A stretch of DNA of 43,490 nt. It comes from an uncultured Eubacteriales bacterium. GTDB lineage: Bacteria > Bacillota > Clostridia > Peptostreptococcales > Anaerovoracaceae. The stretch covers positions 1 to 43,490 of the forward strand of contig OMZN01000070.1 of NCBI GenBank assembly GCA_900315555.1, written 5' to 3'. This document shows positions 1,618-17,822 of the stretch, piece by piece. Each line of letters opens with the position of its first letter. The stretch's first letter is position 1. The position numbers and the translations under genes were made by a program. Under the pieces are notes generated by a model. The model was not told where the DNA came from. It saw nothing but the letters and a program-made list of their open reading frames with translations, and searched no databases.

Positions 1618-4600
1618 TTATTCATGCCGCGCGCTGCGTCTTCTGCCCAGGAAGAGGAAGACGAGCGCCAGCAGCGCTGAAGCACCGGCCACCCCATACA
1701 GGAAGGCCGGAAACCGGCTTCCTGTCTTTGGCGAGGAGCCGCTGACTGCGGCTGTTGTTTTCTTCACCTTTGTATTCTCCAGCGTGTTGACCAGGGTGCC
1801 GCCGTTTCTTACCCTCGAGGTGCTCTGCGCATAGCCCTTTACACTGTTCTCCCGAACACAGTAGTCAATAGTCTTGCCCGACCGGTATTTCGGAAGACCG
1901 GTATAAACAACGGTATACGTATTGTCTCCGTTGTCTTTAATTTCGGGTACAAAGCCGGTCACCCTGCCTTCTCCGTCAAGGAGAGACAGACTACGGGCAA
2001 AACTTTTGGCATCGGGGCGCATACCAGCCTTGTCGCCATGGTCTTCCCATTGTTTAGTAAAGCGGAATGCCGTCACTGCAGGCGTATGCGTATTGGTAAT
2101 GATATACCCCTTCTGCGCATTGCCGACAATGTCCGAGGTATAGCCCGACGCCTTGGAAAGCTCCCGTACAGTATAGTCAATCTCGCTGCCTGACGCTTTC
2201 TCATCCAGCCCGGTCCATGTATGGGTCCACTGATCCTTATCTGTCAATGTCACCGGATCACCGCTGGGCTGTCCGTCGGCATACAGCTGCACCTGCACCT
2301 GTTTTGGACGAACCCCGTCCTGATCATTGCCGTCCTTCCAGGCCTTGGTTACCGTGACGCTCGTTTTCCCCGGCGTATAGGCGTTGGTGATCTGGCCGCC
2401 GGCAATTTCCGTGCTGTAATCCGTCACGGCGTCTTCTGTTACCGTATACGTAATCGCCTTGCCGTTTTCATTTTTGGGAAGATCCGTGAACCGGTAGTTC
2501 CAGTTTCCATCCGCATCCGCTTTCACCGTAAGGCTGTCCACCGGTGTGCCGTTTGCCAGCAGCCGCACGGTGATGCTCTCCGGACGTTTTCCGTCCTGGT
2601 TATCTGCATCATGCCAAGTTTTTGTCCCGGCGACTTCTGTCTTTTCCGGCGTATATTTGTTGGTGATGGTACCGCCGCCGGAAACAGAATCCGCATCGGC
2701 AGCATACGGTGCCATGGCATCCTCTTTCACCGTGTAGGATGCCTCTTCACCATCCACCTTCGCCGGCAGCCCGCTATAGGTGACAGTCCAGGTACCATCC
2801 CCCTGGTCCGCCACTTTCGGCGTGCAGTCCGTTATTTCCGTCGTGCCGTTTGCCAGCAGATGGATCTTCGAGGTGAAGGTGTCGATGTCCGGGCGAAGCC
2901 CGTCTCTGTTATTCTGATCATCCCATACTTTAGTGAAGGTAAAGCCGGCAGATGCCGTGGATAGTGTGACACTTCGGGAGATCTTTGCCTGATGAATCAC
3001 GGCGCCGATCATATTCTGGTATCCTTTCCCGTCACTTGCCGTCACATTGCCCGCCGCCGTATAGACTTTCGGATTCGGCTCCATCCAGGGAACTGTGGAA
3101 GAAAGGGTCATGGAGACGTTATCCGATGGTCTCACGGAAGAAACCAGTGAAAAGCTGTCCCCCGCTTTGATTTGGGTAATACCGTTTTCTTCTGCTATCC
3201 CCTCCGGCAGTTTCAATGTGAAGGAAGTGCTGTAATTGGACGGTGCGGAAAGGACAAGCCGTCCCGTATGCCATTTTTTATCCGCTGTGCTGTAAGAGAA
3301 CGAAGTATCGCCGGTAACCTTCACATTCTCTGCCTTAGGTGCCTCTGTAAGAATCATATTCTTGGAATCTGCGTCCAGCAGTCTGCCCGTTAATCCGGTT
3401 TTGTCGACCGCCGAGTTATTGCTTACCCCGGCCTCATACATCAGCGTCCAGATGGCATTCGATGTGCTCGTATAAGCCTGGCTCTCTGTCACATAATAAT
3501 CTGCAAGAAACAGACTGGAATACGAGTCAACCGGATCACCGGAAAAATATACCATGCAGTAGGCCGCTCTCCAGAAAGGAAGCTGCGTCAGCTGCTGATA
3601 GGTCATGCCGGACTTGGTCGTTCCGCCGCCGTAGTAACTTCCCGCTTCCTGCAGGAACTTCTCCAGCAGAGCTGTCTTGTCAGCAGATGTCCGATCCGCA
3701 TAGGAGAATGATTGATTGCCGATACTGTTGGGAAAATCCGTGCGGAGATACTGCGGGGGAACCAGCAGCTGATCGAATTCTTCCTCCGAAAGAGAAGAAG
3801 GGGAATCAACGATCTGATAAAGGCCATACCCATTATAGGGATACCCCGCGTACAGAACGTTCTGCACGCGCATCTTCAGATCGGCCGCTTTGTCGGCAAC
3901 ACCGCCTTCTTCACAGAATTTCTCCAGTGTCGTTTCCGTATACAGCGGAACATTCGGTGTGCTCGATGTCGCATGAGGCCAGTGCAACCCATTGTTCATG
4001 CAGTAGAGAATGATCCTGGTACCATCCGCCGTTGTTATGGAATGAATATCCGTCTGCGGATCGTAATCGATTTTGTAGGAATCGTTGGACGCGTTTTCTG
4101 CACCGCTGAGAACGATGGCATGTCCCGAAAACTTATCGGTTGTCAGCACCGCCGCATCCGAGGCACTGTCTAAAGACACCTGCTCCCGCTCCGCGGCAAG
4201 ATTCTCTGTAAGATGATATGCCTGCACGGTTTCATGCTTCCCGCATTCCGGAAGATCTATCCGGATGGTAACGGCTTTCCTGGGTTCAAGGTTATGCTTT
4301 CCGCCTTTTACGTAGAAATCGAAATCATAGGCCGCCACCTGCTCGGACGTCAGGTCAGACACACCGGCAGCCTTTTCCAAGGCCACAAGGATGCTTTTGC
4401 CCTGCATCTTCGTTACAGAAACCTGCACGCCGACAGGAAACGCGCCTTCCGGCGCATGAATGCGAACCGCTCGCCCGTCATCCGCTTTTGTATTCAGCGT
4501 ACATGCCGGATATGAATGCTGCGTATCTTCTGCCTTCTGCCCGGATGCGGGCGCAGCATCAGATGCGGCATCCTTCTGCACCTCATCATTTTTCTGTGCC

Positions 4601-4773
4601 TCGGCATCTTGTTCCTCAGTGATTTGTGTCTTCTCCTGTCCTGCCACGTTCTGCGACTTGGAAAGCGCTGCCGCCGGATCAGAGGATTCTCCGGCATACA
4701 CTGCCGGCTGCACCATGGCGGCGATGATGAGCAGAGCTAAAAACAGCCACTTCATACGTTTTCTTTTTTTCAA
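1618..4773 (-). CDS. Sortase-anchored surface protein with N-terminal thioester-like region and four CnaB repeats
   Basis: A 1051-residue wall-anchored protein. Residues 1-27 are a signal peptide (basic start, hydrophobic LFLALLIIAA). Residues 30-90 are low-complexity and acidic. About 100-225 resemble an N-terminal beta domain. About 230-460 resemble a TQXA/thioester domain, with C258 in ILYCMNNG and a late TSNAIW motif at 437-442. Four CnaB-type Ig-like repeats follow, about 611-708, 711-801, 803-897 and 901-998, most carrying DGxRP. The sorting signal is SPKTG (1014-1018), then a membrane segment and a basic RRRSARHE tail. SPKTG is the motif preferred by Clostridioides difficile sortase B. 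The start codon is TTG at 4773: AGGAG lies five bases before it, while the next ATG (M7) is too far from any ribosome site. Likely an adhesin or pilus-type stalk. No sortase gene is in the window. Confidence 0.9.
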   Translation of the reverse strand: MKKRKRMKWLFLALLIIAAMVQPAVYAGESSDPAAALSKSQNVAGQEKTQITEEQDAEAQKNDEVQKDAASDAAPASGQKAEDTQHSYPACTLNTKADDGRAVRIHAPEGAFPVGVQVSVTKMQGKSILVALEKAAGVSDLTSEQVAAYDFDFYVKGGKHNLEPRKAVTIRIDLPECGKHETVQAYHLTENLAAEREQVSLDSASDAAVLTTDKFSGHAIVLSGAENASNDSYKIDYDPQTDIHSITTADGTRIILYCMNNGLHWPHATSSTPNVPLYTETTLEKFCEEGGVADKAADLKMRVQNVLYAGYPYNGYGLYQIVDSPSSLSEEEFDQLLVPPQYLRTDFPNSIGNQSFSYADRTSADKTALLEKFLQEAGSYYGGGTTKSGMTYQQLTQLPFWRAAYCMVYFSGDPVDSYSSLFLADYYVTESQAYTSTSNAIWTLMYEAGVSNNSAVDKTGLTGRLLDADSKNMILTEAPKAENVKVTGDTSFSYSTADKKWHTGRLVLSAPSNYSTSFTLKLPEGIAEENGITQIKAGDSFSLVSSVRPSDNVSMTLSSTVPWMEPNPKVYTAAGNVTASDGKGYQNMIGAVIHQAKISRSVTLSTASAGFTFTKVWDDQNNRDGLRPDIDTFTSKIHLLANGTTEITDCTPKVADQGDGTWTVTYSGLPAKVDGEEASYTVKEDAMAPYAADADSVSGGGTITNKYTPEKTEVAGTKTWHDADNQDGKRPESITVRLLANGTPVDSLTVKADADGNWNYRFTDLPKNENGKAITYTVTEDAVTDYSTEIAGGQITNAYTPGKTSVTVTKAWKDGNDQDGVRPKQVQVQLYADGQPSGDPVTLTDKDQWTHTWTGLDEKASGSEIDYTVRELSKASGYTSDIVGNAQKGYIITNTHTPAVTAFRFTKQWEDHGDKAGMRPDAKSFARSLSLLDGEGRVTGFVPEIKDNGDNTYTVVYTGLPKYRSGKTIDYCVRENSVKGYAQSTSRVRNGGTLVNTLENTKVKKTTAAVSGSSPKTGSRFPAFLYGVAGASALLALVFLFLGRRRSARHE

Positions 4774-5019: not shown

Positions 5020-5952
5020 CTATTTCAGGAGACGCATGACAGCCTTGACGATACTGTCGGCCTTCATGCCATATTTTTCCATCAGCTCATCCGGTTCACC
5101 GGATTCACCAAAGGTATCCTGCTGGCCCACCATCGCCATCTTCACCGGGAAGTTTCTGGCTGTCACACCTGCCACCGCTTCACCCAGGCCGCCGATGACG
5201 GAGTGCTCTTCTGCTGTCACAATGGCGCCGGTTTCCTTGGCAGCCTTGATCACAATCTCCTCATCGAGAGGTTTGATGGTATGCATATCAATAATGCGTG
5301 CTTCCACGCCCTTGGCTGCCAGCTCCTCGGCCGCGATCAAAGCTTCATTGACAAGTATGCCAGTCGCCATGATGGTTACATCGCCGCCCTCGCGAATCTG
5401 ATTGCCTTTGCCGATCTGCAGTGTGTCATCTTCCTTATAGGTGACCGGCACTGCTGCACGTCCGAAGCGAAGATAGCAGGGACCCTGCATCGCCACCGCC
5501 TGCTCCAGAAGCTTGGCAGCGCTCACTGCATCAGAGGGGTTGATCACCGTCATCCCCGGGATGGTCCGCATCAGCGCCAGATCTTCAAACGTCTGATGGC
5601 TGGCACCGTCAGGTCCTACCGTGATGCCGGCATGCGTCGCGCACACCTTGACATTCAAATGCGGATAGCCGATGGAATTGCGAATGATCTCAAAGGCTCT
5701 GCCGCTGGCAAACATGGCAAACGTGCTGGCGCATACCACCTTGCCGCTGGCAGCCAGGCCGGCTGCTGTGCCATACATGTCCTGCTCGGAAATGCCCATG
5801 TTGAAAAATCTGTCGGGATAAGCCTTCTTGAACATTCCTGTCTTCGTGGAACCGGAAAGGTCGGCATCCAGAACCACCAGGTTTTCGTTCTCGGCGCCAA
5901 GTTTTACCAGCGTCTCACCGTAGGCTTGTCTTGTTGCGATCTTATCTGCCAT
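5020..5952 (-). CDS. Transketolase, C-terminal subunit (split transketolase)
   Basis: The pyrimidine-binding plus C-terminal half of a thiamine-diphosphate transketolase, transferring two-carbon ketol units in the non-oxidative pentose phosphate pathway. At 310 residues it matches the family of separate transketolase C subunits. The conserved glutamate of the cofactor proton relay is E56 in NMGISEQDM, followed by the SFAMFASGRAFE segment and the C-terminal transketolase domain (about 190-310). Its ATG overlaps the stop of the N-subunit gene as TAATG, so the two are translationally coupled and should make equal amounts of a heteromeric enzyme. DXS-like or acetoin dehydrogenase beta subunits are distant alternatives, made unlikely by the partner gene. 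Confidence 0.92.
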   Translation of the reverse strand: MADKIATRQAYGETLVKLGAENENLVVLDADLSGSTKTGMFKKAYPDRFFNMGISEQDMYGTAAGLAASGKVVCASTFAMFASGRAFEIIRNSIGYPHLNVKVCATHAGITVGPDGASHQTFEDLALMRTIPGMTVINPSDAVSAAKLLEQAVAMQGPCYLRFGRAAVPVTYKEDDTLQIGKGNQIREGGDVTIMATGILVNEALIAAEELAAKGVEARIIDMHTIKPLDEEIVIKAAKETGAIVTAEEHSVIGGLGEAVAGVTARNFPVKMAMVGQQDTFGESGEPDELMEKYGMKADSIVKAVMRLLK

Positions 5953-6770
5953 TAAAGTGCACCTCCCAGTTCCTTTACTGCCTGTTCGTACTGTTCATCA
6001 TTGGGCGCCTTGCCGTGCCATCCGGCCTGATCTTCCATGAAGGAAACGCCCTTGCCCTTGACGGTCTTGGCAATGACCAGCGTCGGTCTGCCCTTGCAGG
6101 CCTTGGCAGCCTCCGCTGCCTCGACAATCTGCGTTACATCATGCCCGTCGATCTTAAGTACATTCCATCCGAAACCTTCGAATTTCTTGTCGATAGGTGT
6201 TACCGTCATGACATCCTCGTTGCGGCCGTCGATCTGCAGGCCGTTCCAGTCAAGAAAAGCGGTGATCGTATCCAGCTTGTAGTGGGCCGATGTCATCGCA
6301 GCTTCCCAGACCATGCCTTCCTGGATCTCGCCATCCCCCAGCACAGTGTAGACACGGCTTTTTCTGCCGTCAAGTCTGGCGGCCAGCGCCATGCCGTTGC
6401 ACACAGAGAGTCCCTGTCCCAAAGATCCGGTGGACATATCAATGCCGGGTACTTTATTCATGTTGGGATGTCCCTGAAAACGGCTGCCGAGCTTGCGGAG
6501 GGTCATCACGTCCTCCTTGGGGAAGAAGCCGCGCTCTGCAAGCACCGCATACAGCGCCGGCGCTGCATGGCCCTTGGAAAGGACAAAACGGTCTCTTTCC
6601 GGATCATCGGGATGCTTCGGATCCACATTCATAACCTCAAAATACAATGCCGTAATGATGTCCATAGCCGAAAGCGAGCCGCCCGGATGGCCGGATCCGG
6701 CCGCATGGATTGCCTTAATGGCTGTGATCCTTGCATTGTTCGCAGCCTGTTCCAATTGTTGTTTGTCCAT
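5952..6770 (-). CDS. Transketolase, N-terminal subunit (split transketolase)
   Basis: The diphosphate-binding half of transketolase, 272 residues. It shows the GSGHPGGS substrate/cofactor loop (H28), SKGHAAPALYA, and the ThDP motif beginning GDGEIQEG (145-152) and ending DWNGLQ (about 174-179). A perfect AGGAGG lies a few bases before the ATG at 6770. It is coupled to the C-subunit by a one-base overlap of stop and start, and lies 26 bp after nnrD, so the three genes are probably co-transcribed. Confidence 0.92.
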   Translation of the reverse strand: MDKQQLEQAANNARITAIKAIHAAGSGHPGGSLSAMDIITALYFEVMNVDPKHPDDPERDRFVLSKGHAAPALYAVLAERGFFPKEDVMTLRKLGSRFQGHPNMNKVPGIDMSTGSLGQGLSVCNGMALAARLDGRKSRVYTVLGDGEIQEGMVWEAAMTSAHYKLDTITAFLDWNGLQIDGRNEDVMTVTPIDKKFEGFGWNVLKIDGHDVTQIVEAAEAAKACKGRPTLVIAKTVKGKGVSFMEDQAGWHGKAPNDEQYEQAVKELGGAL

Positions 6771-6796
6771 ACTACTTCCTCCTAACCTTTCGTCAT

Positions 6797-7636
6797 TTAT
6801 CGACCGATCATGGTTTTAATCGCAAGGGGCAGTGTCTCACAGATATCGCCGGCCAAAAGCCCGTTTTCCCCTTTTTCGCCGGCAGCGAGATCACCGGCCA
6901 GACCATGCAGATACACGCCTGCCTGTGCTGCTTCCCACGGAGGGAGCCCCTGCGCCGCCAGGGAAGCGATCGTCCCTGTCAGAACATCGCCGCTGCCTCC
7001 CGTGGCCATGCCCGGGTTGCCCGTCTCCCGGTTCACAAGAATCTCGCCCTGGCGGCAAAGAATGGTCTCGTGCCCCTTGAGCACAACGACAGCCTCATAT
7101 CGTTCGGCAAGCGCTTTCGCCGCTTCAATCCTGTCCGTGATGCGCACACCGCCGAGAAGACGTGACGCCTCCCCGGGATGCGGTGTCATGATCACATGAG
7201 CCGGCCCGCGCCGAAGGGATTGTGCAAGATCCATGCGGACGACATCGTTGAGCCCGTCCGCATCCAGCACCAGCGTTCCCTCAAAGCGGGAAAACACATA
7301 GTCCAGCACCCTCTGATCCTCTTCATGATAGCCCAATCCGGGACCCATCGCAATAACGTCGACAGACAAGATTTTCTCATCAGGGACCCGTTCATACCAC
7401 GTCGCTTCCGGAACAGCGATCTGCAGCACATCGCGGATCGCAGCCGGCGCATAGTACTGCATCAGACCGCAGCCGGTGCGAAGGGCGGCGCGCCCGCACA
7501 GCACGGCGGCGCCGGCCATGCCTGCCGAGCCCGCCACAGCGCCCACAACACCGCACATGTTCTTATAGGCGTCCGGCGGCCGGTGCAGCGGCAGCATCAG
7601 ACGGGCGGCCCGCTCTTTTGTGATCGTTTCTTCCAT
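6797..7636 (-). CDS. nnrD: ADP-dependent (S)-NAD(P)H-hydrate dehydratase
   Basis: Repairs hydrated NAD(P)H using ADP as phosphate donor for dehydration. The 279-residue protein is only the ribokinase-like dehydratase domain; the epimerase domain (NnrE) found fused in many bacteria is absent and must be encoded elsewhere if present. Diagnostic motifs are MGPGLG (97-102), VLDADGLN, TPHPGEASRLL (151-161) and NPGMATGGSGDVLTGT with catalytic D217. The ATG at 7636 is preceded by AAGGA. It sits between mgtE and the transketolase genes on the same strand. Confidence 0.93.
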   Translation of the reverse strand: MEETITKERAARLMLPLHRPPDAYKNMCGVVGAVAGSAGMAGAAVLCGRAALRTGCGLMQYYAPAAIRDVLQIAVPEATWYERVPDEKILSVDVIAMGPGLGYHEEDQRVLDYVFSRFEGTLVLDADGLNDVVRMDLAQSLRRGPAHVIMTPHPGEASRLLGGVRITDRIEAAKALAERYEAVVVLKGHETILCRQGEILVNRETGNPGMATGGSGDVLTGTIASLAAQGLPPWEAAQAGVYLHGLAGDLAAGEKGENGLLAGDICETLPLAIKTMIGR

Positions 7637-9301: not shown

Positions 9302-9331
9302 AGTATACTCTATACATCCTTTTCTTTTCAA
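9302..9331 (-). promoter_or_regulatory. Promoter of mgtE
   Basis: Leftward TTGAAA (9326-9331) and TATACT (9302-9307), 18 bp apart; start expected near 9295. The -35 box overlaps the last codons of the upstream reductase gene, which ends at 9328. Confidence 0.6.
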
Positions 9332-10398
9332 GAGCGGAATTCCCCGTCGATCCGGCGCGCAAAATCCGCCGCGCGCCGGCGGATACCCGCAAGATGCTTG
9401 ACGGCACCCGGATCATTAGCCGTCTCCATCAGCGCAAAGCGCGCCGGCAGCAGGAAGGATTTGTTCATATTCAAGCCGCTGATCAGCTGCATGGCCACAA
9501 TGTCGGATCCGCTGTAGCCGGAAACAATCACAGCAAAGAGCCGCTTGTCATAGAAGGGACGCACCCGGAAGATCGCTGTGAGCCGGTTGACAAAGGCAGA
9601 GAGATTGGCGCTGATGGCATCGTTATAATTGGGACACACCATCACCAGACCATCGCACTGCGCAATGGCAGGATAAACCTCCTCGGTCATAATTCCGCCG
9701 TAAAAGCACTTGTTTTTCTCTCCCAGATGCAGACAGGTCTCATAGGAACATCCGCGGCAGTCCCAGACCTCGCCGTCCCGAAGAGAAATTTCCTTTACAT
9801 CGGCATGCAGGTTCTCCCGCACCATGTGCCAGAGTCCCAAGGTATTGGAAGTCTGCACATTGCCGGCATGGAGAACCAGGAGCCGCGGCCTGCTTCCCTT
9901 GATCTTCGGCGGCACAAAGCCGACCACGCGCCGCACCATCTCACCGACCGCTTCCTGATAGGCGCCAAGGTTGTCCAGACCCTTGATCTTCGCCTGCACA
10001 TCGAAATTCAAAAGGCTTCCTGTACCTTCCACGATAGGACGTCCGGGAAAGGTACAACCGGAGCGGTTGGCGCTGAAGACGATATCTCTTGCCACCGACT
10101 TGGTGAACAGTTCGCTGTTGCCGTCGAGAACGACACCGGCCACGGAACCGTCAAACATGCTGCGATGCGCCCGGATCGTCCGGATCATTCGATACAGCTC
10201 CAGGTTGATCCCCGAATAGCCCAGCGCCACAGAGAAAATGATTTTCCTCCCCCGCAGATCGCACCCGGTCATCGCTTCCACCGTCTCCAAGGTCTTTACC
10301 CGGCATCCTGCAAAGCCTTTCTCCAGCGCCGCCTCCAGACGTCCTGCGCGATCGTTTCCATCATATTCAGGCTTGATCAGTACAACCTCTTCGTCCAT
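9328..10398 (-). CDS. Flavodoxin-fold / NADPH-dependent FMN reductase-like protein
   Basis: A 356-residue cytoplasmic protein in two parts. Residues 1 to about 165 form an alpha/beta region I do not recognise well (RKIIFSVALGYSGINLELYRMI, GTGSLLNF). Residues about 170-356 look like an NADPH-dependent FMN reductase or flavodoxin: a phosphate-loop-like LVLHAGNVQTSNT, a cysteine cluster WDCRGCSYETC, and the family-typical block CDGLVMVCPNYNDAISANLS. Related proteins carry FMN and reduce quinones or iron-sulfur partners. It ends the three-gene unit, 25 bp after the dehydrogenase-like gene, so its redox role probably serves that pathway. Physiological substrate unknown. Confidence 0.75.
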   Translation of the reverse strand: MDEEVVLIKPEYDGNDRAGRLEAALEKGFAGCRVKTLETVEAMTGCDLRGRKIIFSVALGYSGINLELYRMIRTIRAHRSMFDGSVAGVVLDGNSELFTKSVARDIVFSANRSGCTFPGRPIVEGTGSLLNFDVQAKIKGLDNLGAYQEAVGEMVRRVVGFVPPKIKGSRPRLLVLHAGNVQTSNTLGLWHMVRENLHADVKEISLRDGEVWDCRGCSYETCLHLGEKNKCFYGGIMTEEVYPAIAQCDGLVMVCPNYNDAISANLSAFVNRLTAIFRVRPFYDKRLFAVIVSGYSGSDIVAMQLISGLNMNKSFLLPARFALMETANDPGAVKHLAGIRRRAADFARRIDGEFRS

Positions 10399-10423
10399 TT
10401 GTCCGCACCTGTTCCTTCAATCT

Positions 10424-11416
10424 CTACACCAAGGCTTCCAGATTTCTGTATGCGCGTTCAATCCTTGCAAACAGCCGTTCATCCAGCGGGAGATTCTCCA
10501 CCAGCAGACCATCCTCTGTCCGCCGGCAGCGCATCCCGAGGAAAGCGCCCCGGTTTCCTTCGCCGAAATAGGCGGAACTGTAATGCCAGTGTCCGCGCAT
10601 ATCCTCCAGCAGCGAAAGCGCTCCCGAGGAGCAGGCCGGCGCCAGGTAGGGCTTGAATCCCAGCGCACGGATCGCCAGATTGGTATTCACCGTCTGCTGC
10701 GTCAGAGCAAGCGCATTGGCATCATCGTAGCTGCGGATGCTGTCTGCAATCACCAGATCCTGCCCGTGCGGCCCGAAGGCACGGCCCTCCCTGAGATAGA
10801 TGGCAAACACCGGGTCTTTAGCCGCATAGTAGGCCGCCCGGGCATGCATGACACCCAGGCCGAATCCTTTGACCTGGCCGGGGTCCAGTCCGCAGAGAAT
10901 TGCCTGCTTGCACAGGGGATCCACCGGGTCGGAGACCACGAAGAAATCACCGCGGTAGCCGCAGGCTGCTGCCTGCTCGGCAAAGCCGGCGATCAGTTTC
11001 AGATTGCCCTCAAGCTGTGCCATGCGCACGTCTTTGCCCGTCTTCTCTGCCGATGCTTCCACCGGCGGTACGCCCCGGGTGGCGCAGAACAGAAAGACAT
11101 CACCGTCAAAAAGCGCTTCCTTTGAAATCACTTCAACCGGCGGAAACGCCGCCGGATCATCAGGCATGGCAATCTGGTTCAGTTCCATCTCGTAACGGGC
11201 GCATACCTTGTCATCGAGATCACAGATCCCGATACTGCGCACAATATCCGCCCCGGTGAGACGCAGGGCAAGCGCCAGGGTACCGCCCACATCGCCCATC
11301 GCCAGGATGTTGACACGCAGGGCTCTGCGCGGAGGATGGTATCCTTCGATCACAAAGCCGTCTTCTGTCAAGTGCATCCTGTCTTCTGCCGCAAACAATT
11401 CACTTAATCTTCTCAT
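10424..11416 (-). CDS. Lactate/malate dehydrogenase-like NAD-binding protein, function unknown
   Basis: A 330-residue Rossmann protein related by eye to the LDH/MDH fold. After a 30-residue lead, VNILAMGDVGG (36-45) replaces the usual GxGxxG, and the acidic end of strand 2 is D66 in ICDLDD, suggesting NAD(H). VSDPVDPL (161-168) aligns with the LDH NPVD segment, and AFGPHG (213-218) with the catalytic histidine motif (H217). The segment equivalent to LDH LDxxR reads VMHAR, so the partner Asp of the catalytic His appears to be Met190 while R193 is kept; a standard 2-hydroxyacid reaction is therefore uncertain. The C-terminal 70 residues are unfamiliar. Its ATG overlaps the stop of the 1596-residue gene as ATGA, indicating translational coupling. 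Confidence 0.65.
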   Translation of the reverse strand: MRRLSELFAAEDRMHLTEDGFVIEGYHPPRRALRVNILAMGDVGGTLALALRLTGADIVRSIGICDLDDKVCARYEMELNQIAMPDDPAAFPPVEVISKEALFDGDVFLFCATRGVPPVEASAEKTGKDVRMAQLEGNLKLIAGFAEQAAACGYRGDFFVVSDPVDPLCKQAILCGLDPGQVKGFGLGVMHARAAYYAAKDPVFAIYLREGRAFGPHGQDLVIADSIRSYDDANALALTQQTVNTNLAIRALGFKPYLAPACSSGALSLLEDMRGHWHYSSAYFGEGNRGAFLGMRCRRTEDGLLVENLPLDERLFARIERAYRNLEALV

Positions 11417-14400
11417 CGCAAGTAGTCCTTTATCCTCTTCAAACGTTCCATATCATCTTCTATGTAGCAGCTGGCAGCAATGGTGTAATCGTAATCAAGG
11501 CTGCTGCCCACATCGGTGATCACCGGCCAGCTGACCGCCTCGGAAAGGCGCTGCAACGTCATCTTGCGTCCGAAGGCCTTCTGGTACTCGGCTTCCAGCG
11601 TCTGCAGGATCTCCTTGGTATTCTCAAGGCAGGTCATCGAAAAATCATACAGAGATTCCCGCGAAACATGCTCCAGGAAGTGTGGTGCCACATACGGCAT
11701 GATCATATTGATCGATGTGAAATCCATGTCCTCTTTGCCTTCGTCATGCTCCACCCCGTCGCCGTCGATGAAGGGATACATCTCCGATTCCACGAACCAG
11801 CATTTGAGATTGGGCACGAAATACACGCTGTCCACATCCATGCCGTGAAGCTTCATCATATCCTTGCCGCTGCCGGACATGATCCCGACGATCACGCGTT
11901 CCACATCCACGCCGCCCTCCTTCAGTGTCGGCAACAGGCGCTGGATCTGATAGCCCTTATGCAGGATGTCGTCCACCAGGATGGCCTTCCTGTTAAAGGA
12001 ATGAATCGTTCTCACCTGATCCTCTATGCTGGCGTAGAAAGGATATTCCTTGACATAGGATTCATGCAGATCCTTGGTAAAGCATTTCTGGGTATGGAGA
12101 ACCTTGGTCACCGTATTGGGCACCACCGTACCCGTCAGGATCTTGCCGTATGGGACGCAGATGTAGGGACCCAGCCGCCGTTTTTTGCGGGGTTTTGCCG
12201 GCACATTGTTCTCCACGGTCACTTTCTTGATCAGCTTCTGCTGCATGACGGTGGAATTGATGGCCAGAATCAGTGTCCCGGGGAACATCCTGTTCAGAGA
12301 TTCCTGCATCCGGATGCGCGCCCTGTTGAGCGTTTTCTGCATCACCGGATCGGAGCGGAAGGGTTCCTTCAGCTTGGTGTCCATATTCTGCAGCAGGACT
12401 ACCGGATTGCGCATATCCACAGCATAGCAGTCTGTCGGCGTGCCCTTGTTGATGATCTGCGCAAAGCCCTGCCTGGCGAGAACATCCAGGAACGGACCTG
12501 CCTCCCTGCGATCGTCAGGATGATACACCGCATAGGTGAAATCCTGCTTCAGCGCCTCGGCCAGGGTCTCCGACAGGATCATCTGAGAGGCATCCGGCTC
12601 ATCCCAGTCCGGATCCACGTAGATGGATTTGATGATGCAGATCATGCCCACCGCGTACCCGCGGATGTATTTCATGGTCTCAAAATCCTCGAATTCCTCA
12701 TAGAGGTGCCCAAGATCCAGCTTGCGGACGTTCGCTTCCGCCAGAATCTTTCCATCCCGGCTCTCATCCACGATACTGATGGTTTCTCCCGGTCCTTCCC
12801 ACCGTGAAACACGATAGCTCAGATCGTTCTCCTCCAGGACGGCCTTATACTGAGAAGACCGCATATAGAGGCTGTTGTCATAGATATAGTTCTGCACCAC
12901 CGGGTCAATCAGACTGGCGATGTCCCGGTTGTTATCAATGTTCTCACGAATTCTGGTGGAGCTGATGTCCTCCAGCTGCACCGGCAGCGCCAGTTCCACG
13001 ATATGTCCCCGGATCTGCTTCTTGTTCTGCATATAGTGGTCCTCGCTGCGTTCTCCCTGCTCTGCACTGACCCGGCGGAAGATGATGTGGTTGATGGAAT
13101 GAATAGAGTGCTCCCCTGCCGGCTTGCGGTAGGAACTGGCGTTGGCCACCACATCGCTGCCAACCACAATATAGAGATCCTTGCCGCTGAAGATCTCCTT
13201 GAGGATCTGCAGATCCTCCCCATTGGCAATATTGATCGGTACATCATCGGGCAGCAGGAAGACCTCTGTCTCGCTGGCACAGGACATCTCCACAATCTTC
13301 TTGCGGTATTTCCTGGGCTGGGTATTTTTGGACCAGGAAAATTCATCCAGCGCCAGGTACACCTGAAAGCCCATGCTGACAATGGTTCTGACGATCCCCT
13401 TGTGCCCCAGCGAGAAGGGATCGAACGTACCCGGGAAGAAAGCCACACGCTTCTTTTCCTCCAGCGTCGTCTCCTCAAGATAGAACTGATAGTCGGAGAT
13501 GAAACGGTAAATATGGTTCAGCGCTGCCGCATTATTGTAAAAGCGAAGTTCCGCATTTTCATCAGGCTGAATCAGCGTCAGCATCTTCTTGCCCATGATC
13601 TGGAAAATATCGAGTTTTTCCTGCAGGCTCAAATGCCCGGATCCGAAGATCTTTTCCCCGATGACCATGAAAGCTTCCTGGCTGACCGACTCATGGTAGT
13701 TGGCAAGCCCCCGCAGCAGCATGCCGATAATTCTGATGCGATGCCGCTTGAAGCGCTTTTGCGCCTGGACATCGTAATTGTATTCCATATAGTAATTGAG
13801 AAGAACCGCCAGCGTATCGAGCGTGACCCCGGCCACCCGATCATTGCTGCTCTCCAGCAGATGCTCCAGTTCATACAGCGTCTCGTTAAAGCTCTCCAGA
13901 GGAAGCTTGGCGATCATAATGCCAAGATAGTCCGGAATGTATTTGGAAAACTGATACTCACCGATCTCCAGGCCCTTGGTGAGCTCGATAACGATCTCTG
14001 AACGCTGATCCATGTCCAGCATGTCAAAGAGACGGATCAGGCCTTCTCCTGCACGGTGCCGCACCGTGACCCGTTCGCTGACCTTCAGCAGGTTGGCCAG
14101 GTGGGTGGCAATATAGAAAGCGCTTGTGCGTTTGCCGTGTTCCAGTTCCTCCAGCATCAGCTCAATATTGACCACCTTGATGTTCCACGGCGTGCCCACC
14201 TGCAGATTCTCCCGGAAGATCCGGCTGGTAGCCTTGCTTAAGTCATAGAAGGCATTGCGGCATCGCGCCGAGCGCTCTCCCCAGAAATCCAGGGCGCTGG
14301 CGGTGGTTGCCTTCAGATAGACAACGCTGGCCTCCTCGTCGCCTTCCACGTCCGTCTCCAGCGTCTGCTCCATCAGCTCCACAGCGCGGGCCGAAAGCTT

Positions 14401-16203
14401 GGCATAGCCGGCTGTGGTTGCAATACACTGCACCGCGCGCAGCGCCGCCACTTGAATCTCCAGCACGTCCCGCATGACCGCCTTGCTGCAGAAAGCCGCC
14501 ATCAGCTCGATATCCTCCTTGCTGCAGACACCAAAAGGCACCTCCAGCATGGTATCCAGCACGACGAAAAGAGTATCTTCATTTTCTATGCGCCCGCGGA
14601 GCACATCAACAAACTGCTTCATGTACAGCCGCTTCTTTTCCCGGCCGCTGGCATTTTCGATCAGCTCGGACATCGTGATCTTCAGGGTATAGCCTCTCCA
14701 TCGTCTCTGCCGCTCCGTCAGCTTGCTGTCTGCGTTGATCACGTAGTCAATATGCTCACTCCACAGCCGGCTGCTGCCGGTCTGAGGATCCTCCACCACA
14801 TCCTCAGGCAGTTCCTTACGGCTTTCCTTGTCATAGCTGGCCAGAATCTGACCGATCAGCGAAGCAGCCAGCCGCCGGATATCTCCCTCATGATGAATCA
14901 GCAGTTCTCTGGCAAAATTCATGGTCATCCTCTTTTGGGAACCGGTCATATAGGTGAAGTATTCTTCCAGGGTGTTCAGGTAAGCCCGGATATTCTTCCA
15001 TTGCTTCTCACTGCGGGCATCTTCCAATAGACTTGCCAGGTCCGCATCGTTGCCAAAGTGGTGCATCACCAGAATATTGTGTTCGATGGCCATGTACTTG
15101 AAGCGCTGTACCGATTCCTCCGGGTTCAGCAGCACCGCGTCCTTCTTTGTAACGTGCCGCCCCATGTAGTCATCCAGATCGGTGGAGATGCCCAGACTCT
15201 TCATGTAGTCTTCAAAGTCATGCAGCTTGGCATAGACACGCTGGTATCTTGCCTTTTTTCGGTCATCAACATTGTCCAGCTTCTGCAGGATTATATCGAA
15301 GGCATCATCCAGCGTGTTGATATGGATGATCTCGGTGCCGTCCTCCGCATGGGTGCTCTTGACCCGGAAATCTGCATAGATCAACAGCAGATTCTCCACG
15401 GAAAGATTCTCCAGCTCCAGATCCCAGGTGGAATGGTTGCTGGCGATGTGCGCTGTCATGGGCATGCCCAGATGATTCAGACATTCATCCGTATAGTAGT
15501 AATGAAGATAGGGTACCCGGCTCTGTTCCTTCTTCCTGCATCCGTACTTGCCGATATCGTGCAGTGCCGCACTGGCCGATACCAGCGCCAGATCAACGGG
15601 CACATCCCGCTGCGCAAGCTGCCGGCCCGCAAACATGGCTACGTTATGCACCCCTGCTACATGGCCCAAAGTATTGTAACCAGTAAGTTCTGCTCCAAGA
15701 TGCATGAATTCATACAGATAGTGATTTCGATCCACCCGGCGGTACGTGAGATATTCCTCATAGGCGCCGCTGCCGCGGATTTCCTCTTCTCCTGGCAGCT
15801 CAAAGTCAAATACCGGATCGTCGGGGCGTCCGTCCCGGCTGACCATCAGGATGGTGCGCATCATTTCATAAATGAAATACACGCCCTGATCGTAGCGCGG
15901 ATCCGCCGGGATCGCTTCCGCTCTGGGAAAAAGATACTGCAGCACCCAGTCATAGCAGTATCTTCGCCAGCCCGCAGGCGGCGTCGGACAAAGCAGCCGG
16001 ATCCCGTCCTTCATTTCCTCAATGACACTTTCCCAGGTGATCTTCGGCTGTCTGGCGATTCTGGCCGCATGCCCTGCGATATCGATATCCCGCAGGAAGG
16101 CCTCCATATTACCTCGTTGAATACCTATCTTTCGCAGATAATGACGGTTTGTCATCCTGCGCTCCAGCGCCTCCTGCAAGTCCAGACTATTGATTTGACT
16201 CAT
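11413..16203 (-). CDS. Giant multidomain protein: HD, helical repeats, NadD-like nucleotidyltransferase, GNAT-like and PRTase-like regions
   Basis: 1596 residues in one frame. About 180-290 form an HD-type metal phosphohydrolase region, with H186, then ALHDIGKYG giving H215-D216 and later D278. About 380-880 are helix-rich, HEAT-like, with no recognised catalytic motif. About 918-1115 are a nicotinate-nucleotide adenylyltransferase-like domain: AFFPGTFDPFSLGHKG with its GH signature at 933-934, and the C-terminal ISSTRIRE motif at 1080-1087. About 1125-1265 resemble a GNAT acyltransferase (GKILAEANVRKL, ARQGFAQI). About 1340-1480 resemble a phosphoribosyltransferase: AILVDDILHKG (1407-1417) matches the PRPP-loop core but lacks the usual TGxT ending. 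GGAGGTGA precedes the ATG at 16203. NadD and the HD protein YqeK are genomic neighbours in many Bacillota. Substrate and function are unknown. Confidence 0.8.
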   Translation of the reverse strand: MSQINSLDLQEALERRMTNRHYLRKIGIQRGNMEAFLRDIDIAGHAARIARQPKITWESVIEEMKDGIRLLCPTPPAGWRRYCYDWVLQYLFPRAEAIPADPRYDQGVYFIYEMMRTILMVSRDGRPDDPVFDFELPGEEEIRGSGAYEEYLTYRRVDRNHYLYEFMHLGAELTGYNTLGHVAGVHNVAMFAGRQLAQRDVPVDLALVSASAALHDIGKYGCRKKEQSRVPYLHYYYTDECLNHLGMPMTAHIASNHSTWDLELENLSVENLLLIYADFRVKSTHAEDGTEIIHINTLDDAFDIILQKLDNVDDRKKARYQRVYAKLHDFEDYMKSLGISTDLDDYMGRHVTKKDAVLLNPEESVQRFKYMAIEHNILVMHHFGNDADLASLLEDARSEKQWKNIRAYLNTLEEYFTYMTGSQKRMTMNFARELLIHHEGDIRRLAASLIGQILASYDKESRKELPEDVVEDPQTGSSRLWSEHIDYVINADSKLTERQRRWRGYTLKITMSELIENASGREKKRLYMKQFVDVLRGRIENEDTLFVVLDTMLEVPFGVCSKEDIELMAAFCSKAVMRDVLEIQVAALRAVQCIATTAGYAKLSARAVELMEQTLETDVEGDEEASVVYLKATTASALDFWGERSARCRNAFYDLSKATSRIFRENLQVGTPWNIKVVNIELMLEELEHGKRTSAFYIATHLANLLKVSERVTVRHRAGEGLIRLFDMLDMDQRSEIVIELTKGLEIGEYQFSKYIPDYLGIMIAKLPLESFNETLYELEHLLESSNDRVAGVTLDTLAVLLNYYMEYNYDVQAQKRFKRHRIRIIGMLLRGLANYHESVSQEAFMVIGEKIFGSGHLSLQEKLDIFQIMGKKMLTLIQPDENAELRFYNNAAALNHIYRFISDYQFYLEETTLEEKKRVAFFPGTFDPFSLGHKGIVRTIVSMGFQVYLALDEFSWSKNTQPRKYRKKIVEMSCASETEVFLLPDDVPINIANGEDLQILKEIFSGKDLYIVVGSDVVANASSYRKPAGEHSIHSINHIIFRRVSAEQGERSEDHYMQNKKQIRGHIVELALPVQLEDISSTRIRENIDNNRDIASLIDPVVQNYIYDNSLYMRSSQYKAVLEENDLSYRVSRWEGPGETISIVDESRDGKILAEANVRKLDLGHLYEEFEDFETMKYIRGYAVGMICIIKSIYVDPDWDEPDASQMILSETLAEALKQDFTYAVYHPDDRREAGPFLDVLARQGFAQIINKGTPTDCYAVDMRNPVVLLQNMDTKLKEPFRSDPVMQKTLNRARIRMQESLNRMFPGTLILAINSTVMQQKLIKKVTVENNVPAKPRKKRRLGPYICVPYGKILTGTVVPNTVTKVLHTQKCFTKDLHESYVKEYPFYASIEDQVRTIHSFNRKAILVDDILHKGYQIQRLLPTLKEGGVDVERVIVGIMSGSGKDMMKLHGMDVDSVYFVPNLKCWFVESEMYPFIDGDGVEHDEGKEDMDFTSINMIMPYVAPHFLEHVSRESLYDFSMTCLENTKEILQTLEAEYQKAFGRKMTLQRLSEAVSWPVITDVGSSLDYDYTIAASCYIEDDMERLKRIKDYLR

Positions 16204-16226
16204 GCGGTCACCTCCAAAACATAGTC

Positions 16227-16235
16227 ATTATACCA
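16227..16235 (-). promoter_or_regulatory. Extended -10 promoter of the giant-protein operon
   Basis: Leftward TGGTATAAT: a perfect TATAAT (16227-16232) with the TGn extension. The -35 position has only a weak match. The leader would be about 17 nt, ending in GGAGGTGA before the ATG at 16203. Confidence 0.7.
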
Positions 16236-16290
16236 TAAGACACTCTAAGTAGAAACCGGTTCCAACCCATTGATATTACTGGATTTCTTC

Positions 16291-16328
16291 ATGTATACAT
16301 GATACATTCATCAAGTGAATGTATACAT
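16291..16328. promoter_or_regulatory. Twin perfect palindromes between the divergent giant-protein and gdhA promoters
   Basis: ATGTATACAT, a perfect 10-bp palindrome, occurs at 16291-16300 and again at 16319-16328. Between them ATACATTCA (16302-16310) and TGAATGTAT (16316-16324) form a further inverted repeat around TCAAG. The cluster lies about 35-70 bp upstream of the gdhA -35 box, as expected for a regulator site. Factor unknown. Confidence 0.55.
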
Positions 16329-16361
16329 CTTTGCTTAATTTATTTGGAATAAGCACACTTA

Positions 16362-16390
16362 TTGAATTCCTCGTTTTTATGTGCTATGTT
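16362..16390 (+). promoter_or_regulatory. Sigma-70-type promoter of gdhA
   Basis: TTGAAT (16362-16367) and TATGTT (16385-16390) are 17 bp apart. Start expected near 16397, leaving a leader of about 80 nt that ends in AAAGGAG (16462-16468). Confidence 0.7.
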
Positions 16391-16478
16391 TCTAATTGAA
16401 CGTAGAGACAACTCCCTGTTGAAACGTAAATAATGATTCATGTTTTTATGTTTTTAAAAGCAAAGGAGAGCAAAAAGA

Positions 16479-17822
16479 ATGTTGGATTACATCGAAAGAG
16501 TTATTAAAGAGTGCGAGGAAAAGAACCCCGGCGAAGTGGAATTCCACCAGACAGTTGAAGAAGTTCTGCGGTCTTTGGAGCCGGTTATCGAAAGGCACCC
16601 TGAATATGAGAAGGCAGCCCTGCTGGAGAGGCTGACCGAGCCGGAGCGCGGCATTACCTTCCGTGTCGTCTGGACTGATGACAAAGGCAAGGTTCGCGTC
16701 AACAAAGGATATCGTTACCAGTTCAACAGTGCGATCGGGCCCTACAAAGGCGGCCTCCGCTTCGCAGCGAATGTATATCCCGGCATCATTAAGTTCCTTG
16801 GCTTTGAACAGATTTTCAAAAACAGCCTGACCGGTCTTCCCATCGGCGGCGGCAAGGGCGGTTCCGACTTTGATCCCAACGGCAAGAGCGACGGAGAAAT
16901 CATGCGCTTCTGCCAGGCGTTCATGACCGAGCTTTACAGACACATCGGTCCTGAAACCGACGTACCTGCCGGCGACCTGGGCGTAGGCGCCAAGGAGATC
17001 GGCTATCTGTACGGACAGTACAAGAGAATTGTCAATCGCTTTGAGGGCGTTCTGACCGGCAAGGGACTTCCCTTCGGCGGCCTCAACGGACGTACGGAAG
17101 CCACCGGCTACGGCATCGTCTACTTCGCACAGGCTATGCTGGAAGCTAACGGCGAAGCGCTGGAAGGTAAAACCGTTGCTCTCTCCGGATTCGGTAATGT
17201 GACATGGGGCACCGCAAGAAAACTGAACGAGCTGGGTGCCAAGGTCATCACCATTTCCGGTCCCGACGGCTATATCCTGGACGAGTCCGGCATCTCCGGC
17301 GACAAAGTTGAATACCTCAGAGAACTGCGCGCCAGCGGCGAAAACATCTGCTCTCCTTATGCAGAAAAATATCCTGAAGCGAAGTTCTACAGAGGCAAGA
17401 AGCCCTGGGAAGTGGAAGCTGACCTCTACATCCCCTGCGCGACTCAGAATGAGATCCAGGCAGAGGATGCACAGGGCTTCGTAGACAGAGGCGTCAAGTT
17501 CGTCTGCGAAGGTTCCAACATGTCCTCCACCAACGAGGCGATCAAGATCATGCAGGACGGCGGCATCATTGTCGGACCTTCCAAGGCAGCCAATGCCGGC
17601 GGTGTAGCCTGCTCCTGCATCGAAATGGGACAGAACAGCGGCAAGACCGTCTTCAAGGCAGAACAAGTACACGCACAGCTTAAGGACATCATGCTGGGCA
17701 TCCACAAGGCATGCCAGGAAGCTTCCGAAGAGTACTATGGTACCTACGATCTGGTCAAGGGTGCCAACATCGCTGGCTTCCTGAAGGTTGCCGATGCTAT
17801 GATGAGCCAGGGTTTGGTATAG
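16479..17822 (+). CDS. gdhA: NADP-type glutamate dehydrogenase
   Basis: Hexameric glutamate dehydrogenase interconverting glutamate and 2-oxoglutarate plus ammonia, central to nitrogen assimilation or glutamate fermentation. The 447-residue length and motifs match the hexameric class typified by Clostridium symbiosum. Expected active-site residues are present: K90 in GPYKGGLRF, K114 in IFKNSL, catalytic K126 in PIGGGKGG, and D166 in PAGDLGVG. The Rossmann loop is SGFGNVTWG. AAAGGAG lies 10 bases before the ATG. Coenzyme preference is inferred from family resemblance only. Single gene with its own promoter and terminator. Confidence 0.96.
   Translation: MLDYIERVIKECEEKNPGEVEFHQTVEEVLRSLEPVIERHPEYEKAALLERLTEPERGITFRVVWTDDKGKVRVNKGYRYQFNSAIGPYKGGLRFAANVYPGIIKFLGFEQIFKNSLTGLPIGGGKGGSDFDPNGKSDGEIMRFCQAFMTELYRHIGPETDVPAGDLGVGAKEIGYLYGQYKRIVNRFEGVLTGKGLPFGGLNGRTEATGYGIVYFAQAMLEANGEALEGKTVALSGFGNVTWGTARKLNELGAKVITISGPDGYILDESGISGDKVEYLRELRASGENICSPYAEKYPEAKFYRGKKPWEVEADLYIPCATQNEIQAEDAQGFVDRGVKFVCEGSNMSSTNEAIKIMQDGGIIVGPSKAANAGGVACSCIEMGQNSGKTVFKAEQVHAQLKDIMLGIHKACQEASEEYYGTYDLVKGANIAGFLKVADAMMSQGLV

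Follow-up and report, generated by a model that had tools for sequence, protein, structure and literature searches.

What might a single 1596-residue protein with five predicted domains do, when the same two genes follow it in genome after genome? The question is raised by an operon on contig OMZN01000070.1 (GenBank assembly GCA_900315555.1), from an uncultured Eubacteriales bacterium of the Anaerovoracaceae; the whole stretch analysed, 43,490 nucleotides long, is called the window below. Three genes fill positions 16203-9328 of its minus strand and encode a giant protein (1596 aa), a protein resembling lactate dehydrogenase (LDH-like, 330 aa) and a flavin reductase (356 aa). This trio is a real, chromosomal, clade-limited and co-inherited unit. 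Our answer to the question is tentative: we consider it plausible, if short of probable, that the three genes work together in metabolism to produce an unusual compound of nucleotide type and to keep it in check, in connection with glutamate/ammonium metabolism.

Three genes inherited together

An initial annotation of the window had described the three genes, and checking the sequence recovered them as described: the stop codon of the giant gene and the start codon of the LDH-like gene share an ATGA overlap, and 25 bp separate the LDH-like gene from the flavin reductase gene. A GGAGGTG-type ribosome site stands ahead of the first ATG of the giant gene. An extended -10-like TATAAT was seen by eye upstream, which is not on the promoter-scan list, the sites on that list being about as numerous as in its shuffles. 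As judged by whole-length homologues in many genomes, the reading frames of the trio are not chance ones; the homologues of the giant protein are mostly 1,450-1,680 aa and match along its whole length.

We compared 115 non-redundant loci of the giant gene, using all reading frames; two of them (L032 and L040) are the halves of one gene, lying on two contigs of one genome. Eight loci are cut by contig ends, and at 98 of the 107 informative loci both partner genes lie downstream, on the same strand and in the same order; at one the third gene is inverted, and the other eight are weighed below. The inverted copy (L062) belongs to a metagenome-assembled genome (MAG) labelled Spirochaetes, which may reflect misbinning or transfer. 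No fourth conserved gene was found across the loci; a cluster that appeared to be the next gene (36 loci) overlaps genes 2 and 3 entirely on the other strand and was rejected as antisense frames. The distance matrices of the three proteins correlated with r values of 0.795, 0.847 and 0.785 over 99 loci, the maxima in 500 shuffles being 0.098, 0.097 and 0.173.

Presence across genomes follows the same pattern. Among 99 relatives, the giant protein was matched strongly beyond its NadD part in 36 (hand count), and the LDH-like protein was found in the same 36, plus one further weak match (G016). The third protein was strong in 33 of the 36 carriers; the assemblies of the other three are fragmented, and strong third-protein matches were confined to genomes with the giant gene. 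A set of 243 genomes of the class gave the giant protein in 21 and the LDH-like protein in the same 21, and the C-terminal half of the giant protein was found in 4 of 249 genomes of the phylum, including the window's own. A neighbourhood survey had been named with the initial annotation as a way to refute the operon, and the three genes do stay together. A scan of named genomes confirmed at least 570 relatives, and the best 80 of these include Anaerovorax, Emergencia, Hornefia, Sedimentibacter, Anaerotignum, Clostridium fessum, Oscillibacter, Flintibacter, Pseudoflavonifractor, Fournierella, many MAGs and one genome labelled Spirochaetes. The carriers are gut and sediment clostridia and include genomes of Lachnospiraceae and Oscillospiraceae type that are common in the gut. 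A mobile element was considered and rejected, the lone match in the plasmid collection being a 2.6-Mb record from Acetoanaerobium noterae, as large as a chromosome.

Domain order of the giant protein

AlphaFold models of the giant protein, made in two parts from alignments of 52 and 82 sequences, reached a mean predicted local distance difference test (pLDDT) score of 86.9 for residues 1-1124 and 91.2 for residues 1125-1596, and, together with the profiles, they support a predicted order of HD domain, HEAT repeats, NadD-like nucleotidyltransferase, GNAT fold and type I phosphoribosyltransferase (PRTase) fold. The motifs on which the initial annotation had based most of this order (ALHDIGKYG for HD, GTFDPFSLGH and ISSTRIRE for the nucleotidyltransferase, AILVDDILHKG for the PRTase) are all present, and the possibility that the regions belong to unrelated folds was checked against profiles and structures, with an outcome in favour of that annotation.

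For the HD part, PF01966 matched residues 179-273 of the window's protein at 16.5 bits, under the Pfam gathering score of 22, and the HD call is upheld by the metal ligands H181, H215, D216, H234, H257 and D278, each of which is present in 113-114 of the 115 sequences. This set fits the six-residue H..HD..H..H..D pattern, which a review (PMC8177086) gives as diagnostic of a dinuclear HD site. By its residues the HD part keeps the predicted six-residue dinuclear motif of YqeK; the spacing is unlike that of YqeK, and the YqeK profile TIGR00488 gave no match in the giant protein at E up to 1. The long helical region that follows is HEAT/ARM-like by the model and by structure matches of residues ~360-908 to importin, the PP2A A subunit and designed repeats.

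The NadD-like part was matched by CTP_transf_like (PF01467) at residues 922-1087 (E 2.3e-8, 34.8 bits against a cut-off of 21), and residues 917-1114 superposed on B. anthracis NadD (3e27) with Z 15.5 and rmsd 2.7 over 171 aligned residues, many NadD rows being tied; the NadD profile TIGR00482 was covered over its full length (E 2.5e-14), at 53.7 bits, under its cut-off of 112.45. The GNAT-like and PRTase-like calls were borne out by structure prediction and family-wide scans. Residues 1125-1266 matched NAA60 (Z 12.0, rmsd 3.1, 129 aligned, with many GNAT rows tied), and Pfam Acetyltransf_1 matched one of 82 family members (E 0.053); residues 1273-1466 matched the PRTase domain of UMP synthase (3qw4; Z 11.7, rmsd 3.0, 119 aligned), xanthine PRTase was matched by Foldseek at E 1.8e-5, and Pfam Pribosyltran matched 26 of the 82 members (best E 1.5e-4).

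Conservation and active sites

Columns at least 95% identical across the 115 non-redundant sequences were counted for each part of the protein: 47 of 210 in HD, 32 of 558 in HEAT, 45 of 203 in the NadD-like part, 5 of 148 in GNAT and 26 of 208 in PRTase. Conservation is thus placed in the HD, NadD-like and PRTase-like parts, which are the catalytic-looking ones.

Nucleotidyltransferases of the HIGH superfamily carry the motifs GxFDP..[HT]xxH and ISSTxIR. In the giant protein, GxFDPF[ST]xxH (as GTFDPF[ST]L[SG]H) and ISS[TS]xIR (as ISSTxIR) are near-invariant across the 115 sequences, with Ser/Thr rather than His at the first position of the HxGH motif, and both motifs together with the CTP_transf_like profile place the NadD-like part in this superfamily. 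HHalign aligned it to the stand-alone NadD of the same genome with 99.5% probability. The SYT and W motifs of NadD face nicotinate mononucleotide (NaMN); in the HHalign alignment SYT (VSYTYETL) is replaced by NIAN (NIANGEDL) and W (LELW) by Tyr (NASSY), so that the ATP-site motifs are retained and the NaMN-pocket motifs are absent. The stand-alone NadD gene lies side by side with a YqeK gene on another contig of this genome. With other residues in place of the motifs that would face NaMN, and with a NadD encoded elsewhere in the genome, the NadD-like part probably does not adenylylate NaMN, and the separate NadD-YqeK pair and the lost motifs argue that the giant protein would not serve housekeeping NAD synthesis. 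The first reading of this part is thus narrowed: the NadD-like fold and the ATP-site motifs stand, and adenylylation of NaMN is improbable.

Two putative redox partners

The LDH-like protein was matched by PF00056 (Ldh_1_N) with E 2.3e-4, under the family cut-offs, and the profile of its own family, compared with lactate and malate dehydrogenase (LDH/MDH) chains in the PDB, gave a best E of 4.8e-9, to MGS-M5 (4q3n). Catalysis in LDH/MDH relies on the His195-Asp168 pair and Arg171. The equivalents of Arg109, Arg171 and His195 are kept as R131, R193 and H217, and the last two are invariant, but in the alignment to 4q3n an invariant methionine (M190) sits at the Asp168 position, leaving the catalytic set incomplete; the Asn of the NPVD motif is replaced by Asp. 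Many LDH-like relatives outside the window's family carry an N-terminal extension of ~90 aa.

In the third protein, the FMN_red domain (PF03358) occupies residues 172-324 (E 5.8e-17, 62.1 bits against a cut-off of 24) and was matched in 23 of 23 aligned members at E up to 0.1. It is preceded by a conserved N-terminal stretch of ~165 aa without family assignment. Four cysteines (C214, C217, C222 and C231) are invariant, with the spacing C-x2-C-x4-C-x8-C, and could hold an Fe-S cluster.

Glutamate and ammonium genes beside the unit

Neighbours of the 115 loci were searched with tblastn and identified by Pfam and NCBIfam. Glutamate/ammonium genes adjoin 19 loci in several arrangements, a recurrent neighbourhood that is new here and absent from the initial annotation: glutamate dehydrogenase (GDH) at 15 loci, GlnK-GlnL at 6, GltS at 4, and Amt with a split glutamate synthase at 2, where GlnK-GlnL is what we take the pair to be from its YcbB-domain response regulator. 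At ten loci a divergent GDH gene lies 214-393 bp from the giant gene; GlnK-GlnL is downstream, with or without GltS and GDH, at L095, L102, L111, L132 and L134; GlnK-GlnL-GltS is upstream at L044; Amt and glutamate synthase stand between genes 1 and 2 at L140 and L141; and GDH is downstream at L146. None of 40 hand-picked control stretches from carrier genomes contained such genes; the controls amounted to 786 kb, and the operon flanks, counted with genes 2 and 3, to 1,497 kb. We take the neighbourhood as a lead, not as proof; it suggests where the unit acts.

Other genes recur near the operon, mostly in one family of loci: MgtE at 10, transketolase halves at 9 and NnrD at 6 of the 115, against MgtE in one and transketolase in two of the 40 control stretches. 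In the window, downstream of MgtE, an NAD(P)H-hydrate dehydratase-type Carb_kinase gene (NnrD-type, 6797-7636) and two transketolase halves occupy 5020-7636 on the minus strand, and the Carb_kinase/transketolase set is found near the operon in several related loci.

Proposed function and its alternatives

A nucleotide-related pathway, as first suggested, is still the best reading of the unit. Given an acceptor pocket unlike that of NadD and the presence of separate housekeeping NadD and YqeK, we suggest that the product is a specialised nucleotide and that two redox partners act with the giant protein. The NadD-like domain would transfer a nucleotidyl group, most likely the AMP part of ATP, to a phosphorylated acceptor other than NaMN, and the PRTase-like domain would bind or supply a ribose-phosphate partner. 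The HD domain, as a YqeK-like dinuclear diphosphatase within the same polypeptide, would hydrolyse product that is faulty or in excess. For this there is a precedent in a YqeK fused to NadD, which disposes of erroneous NadD products by hydrolysis (PMC9426524). The HEAT repeats would hold the parts together, the GNAT-fold part would be mainly structural, and the LDH-like NAD-dependent enzyme and the flavin/four-Cys protein would carry out redox steps on the compound or its precursor. Each of these reactions is our inference, as are the direction in which the pathway runs and the connection with glutamate, be it substrate or signal. A bolder version, in which the product is an undescribed dinucleotide-type redox cofactor or signal, made by a five-part enzyme with a proofreading hydrolase, modified by the LDH-like and flavin/Fe-S proteins and linked to the fermentation of glutamate or the control of nitrogen in Clostridia of gut and sediment, strikes us as doubtful. 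No paper on this five-part architecture was found among titles and abstracts, and the searched libraries matched the unit, ~7 kb long, by generic domain models only. Should the enzyme make a new nucleotide and keep it in check, anaerobic metabolism would gain a cofactor or signal, and metabolomics a gene set to follow; the tight co-occurrence and the intact active-site motifs make direct assays practical.

Several observations weigh against the proposal. The HD call is made from a weak profile and the ligands, the structure-comparison rows covering the HEAT repeats and the NadD-like, GNAT and PRTase folds. GNAT acyltransferases bear the acetyl-CoA loop signature Q/R-x-x-G-x-G/A, which is not found at residues ~1186-1215 of the GNAT part in the family alignment. 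The phosphoribosyl pyrophosphate (PRPP) motif of type I PRTases consists of DD/ED with T-G-x-T; here its two Asp are kept in 113 and 112 of 115 sequences, and the loop is mostly H-K-G-Y-R, so that K-G-Y-R stands in most members where T-G-x-T is expected and the motif looks incomplete. Given a GNAT part without acetyl-CoA loop and a changed PRPP loop, no more than three parts of the giant protein look catalytic. Eight of the 115 loci have the giant gene without either partner; five of these (L021, L030, L031, L045 and L148) are additional copies, the genome carrying the operon at another place as well. Three of them, L030, L031 and L148, combine damage to the nucleotidyltransferase motifs with a preserved HD site, so the activity of HD may be of importance in itself. 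Finally, 96 of the 115 loci are without a glutamate/ammonium neighbour in the flanks covered, the glutamate queries were picked after the neighbours had been seen, and the loci are related.

The same neighbourhood also fits a nitrogen-status regulator that works like GlnD but is a different protein, in which the nucleotidyltransferase tags a protein or small effector and HD removes the tag, HEAT is a protein-binding surface, the GNAT and PRTase parts are ligand sensors, and the redox pair reports the NAD(H)/flavin state. A nucleotidyltransferase and HD on one chain, a HEAT scaffold, two domains with altered catalytic loops, and GDH, GltS, GlnK-GlnL, Amt and glutamate synthase beside the operon are all consistent with it. 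Its nucleotidyltransferase, however, has the NadD-type alpha/beta fold, the known members of which act mostly on small molecules, no GlnD or ACT model is among the Pfam or NCBIfam matches of the giant protein at E up to 1, and two obligate redox enzymes are hard to account for, so we consider it unlikely. Repair or recycling of damaged pyridine or flavin dinucleotides, with HD cleaving, the NadD-like part rebuilding and the redox enzymes resetting the oxidation state, could draw on the NadD-YqeK proofreading precedent (PMC9426524) and on the NnrD-type gene downstream in the window and at 6 of 115 loci. That linkage is limited to loci of the window's kind, while the replaced NaMN-facing motifs and the NadD and YqeK already in the genome make repair rather improbable.

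The solo paralogues L030 and L031, which keep the HD ligands and lose the nucleotidyltransferase motifs, are what would be expected if the giant protein were a mostly structural or degenerate assembly in which HD is the sole enzyme and the rest binds ligands; the operon copies, however, conserve the nucleotidyltransferase motifs as well as HD, and we think such an assembly quite improbable. HD, nucleotidyltransferase and NAD-linked parts do occur in some defence systems, and nucleotide-based defence against phages had been raised in the initial annotation. This part of its inference is dropped as highly improbable: PADLOC models gave no match at E up to 0.01, the phages and viral contigs searched held no homologue, the three-gene set is co-inherited and its neighbours are housekeeping genes. 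Clues to the compound made by the proposed pathway were sought elsewhere. No riboswitch was matched by Rfam in 21 sources, which gave only two T-box leaders and five tRNAs, outside the three genes. Links to lysine 5,6-aminomutase (PF09043 in 25 of 36 operon-bearing against 32 of 63 other relatives) and to glycine/proline reductase (22 of 36 against 22 of 63), the former counted by hand, were rejected as too weak against kinship.

Feature coordinates and other features of the window

Table 1. Positions in the window of the three genes, the shared promoter region and the predicted parts of the giant protein
Feature	Positions	Strand	Basis or remark
Giant protein gene	16203-11413	-	1596 aa, ATG start, strong ribosome site; family alignment of 115 non-redundant sequences
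LDH/MDH-like NAD-binding protein gene	11416-10424	-	330 aa; PF00056 E 2.3e-4
Flavin reductase gene	10398-9328	-	356 aa; PF03358 E 5.8e-17
Shared divergent promoter region, giant gene / glutamate dehydrogenase gene	16204-16478	.	Sequence; GDH at 16479-17822 +
N-terminal helical stretch, residues 1-140	15784-16203	-	Poorly conserved, mean column identity 0.37
HD domain, residues 141-350	15154-15783	-	PF01966 16.5 bits; ligands H181, H215, D216, H234, H257, D278
HEAT/ARM-like helical repeats, residues 351-908	13480-15153	-	AlphaFold model and structure matches
NadD-like nucleotidyltransferase, residues 915-1117	12853-13461	-	GTFDPFSLGH, ISSTRIR; PF01467; NadD fold
GNAT-fold domain, residues 1125-1272	12388-12831	-	Fold match to NAA60; weakly conserved
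Type I PRTase-fold domain, residues 1273-1480	11764-12387	-	Altered PRPP motif AILVDDILHKGYQ
C-terminal tail, mostly helical, residues 1481-1596	11416-11763	-	AlphaFold model, conservation

The GDH gene of the window (16479-17822, plus strand) is divergent from the operon, and a 469-aa minus-strand frame lying over it, without a Pfam match, is probably spurious. The promoter region between GDH and the operon holds, at 16290-16330, a palindromic stretch that contains the ATGTATACAT repeat twice and might be a regulator site; it is not conserved in nine relatives. Three other minus-strand frames were seen: a 1051-aa surface-type protein with four Cna_B stretches (1618-4773), an 876-aa frame with an EF-G-like GTPase and a C-terminal YacP-like NYN domain (32755-35385), and a 1426-aa CoA-enzyme activase-like protein (BcrAD_BadFG, DUF2229; 37924-42204).

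Comparison with known systems

The nearest parallel to the giant protein in architecture is the mycoplasma NadD-YqeK fusion (PMC9426524), which likewise joins a NadD-type nucleotidyltransferase and an HD phosphohydrolase in one chain. The giant protein differs in placing HD first, with ~550 residues of HEAT repeats between the parts, in being without the NaMN-pocket motifs, and in its extra GNAT and PRTase folds; redox partner genes accompany it, and its host also has separate nadD and yqeK. With NadD itself (TIGR00482) it shares the fold (Z 15.5) and the motifs GxFDP..xxH and ISSTxIR, whereas its profile score is low (53.7 bits against 112.45), SYT/W have become NIAN/Y, and the first His of HxGH has become Ser/Thr. 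The uridylyltransferase/uridylyl-removing enzyme GlnD offers the same logic of nucleotidyltransferase plus HD in a setting of nitrogen metabolism, but the giant protein has another nucleotidyltransferase fold and no detected ACT domains.

The partner proteins show a similar mixture. An invariant Met in place of Asp168, Asp in place of the NPVD Asn, and scores under the family cut-offs set the LDH-like protein apart from the L-lactate/malate dehydrogenase family (PF00056), with which it shares the NAD-binding fold and the equivalents of Arg109, Arg171 and His195. The third protein, unlike the FMN_red iron-sulfur flavoproteins, has an extra conserved N-terminal stretch of ~165 residues and the Cys spacing C-x2-C-x4-C-x8-C; like them, it combines an FMN_red domain scoring above the cut-off with four invariant cysteines.

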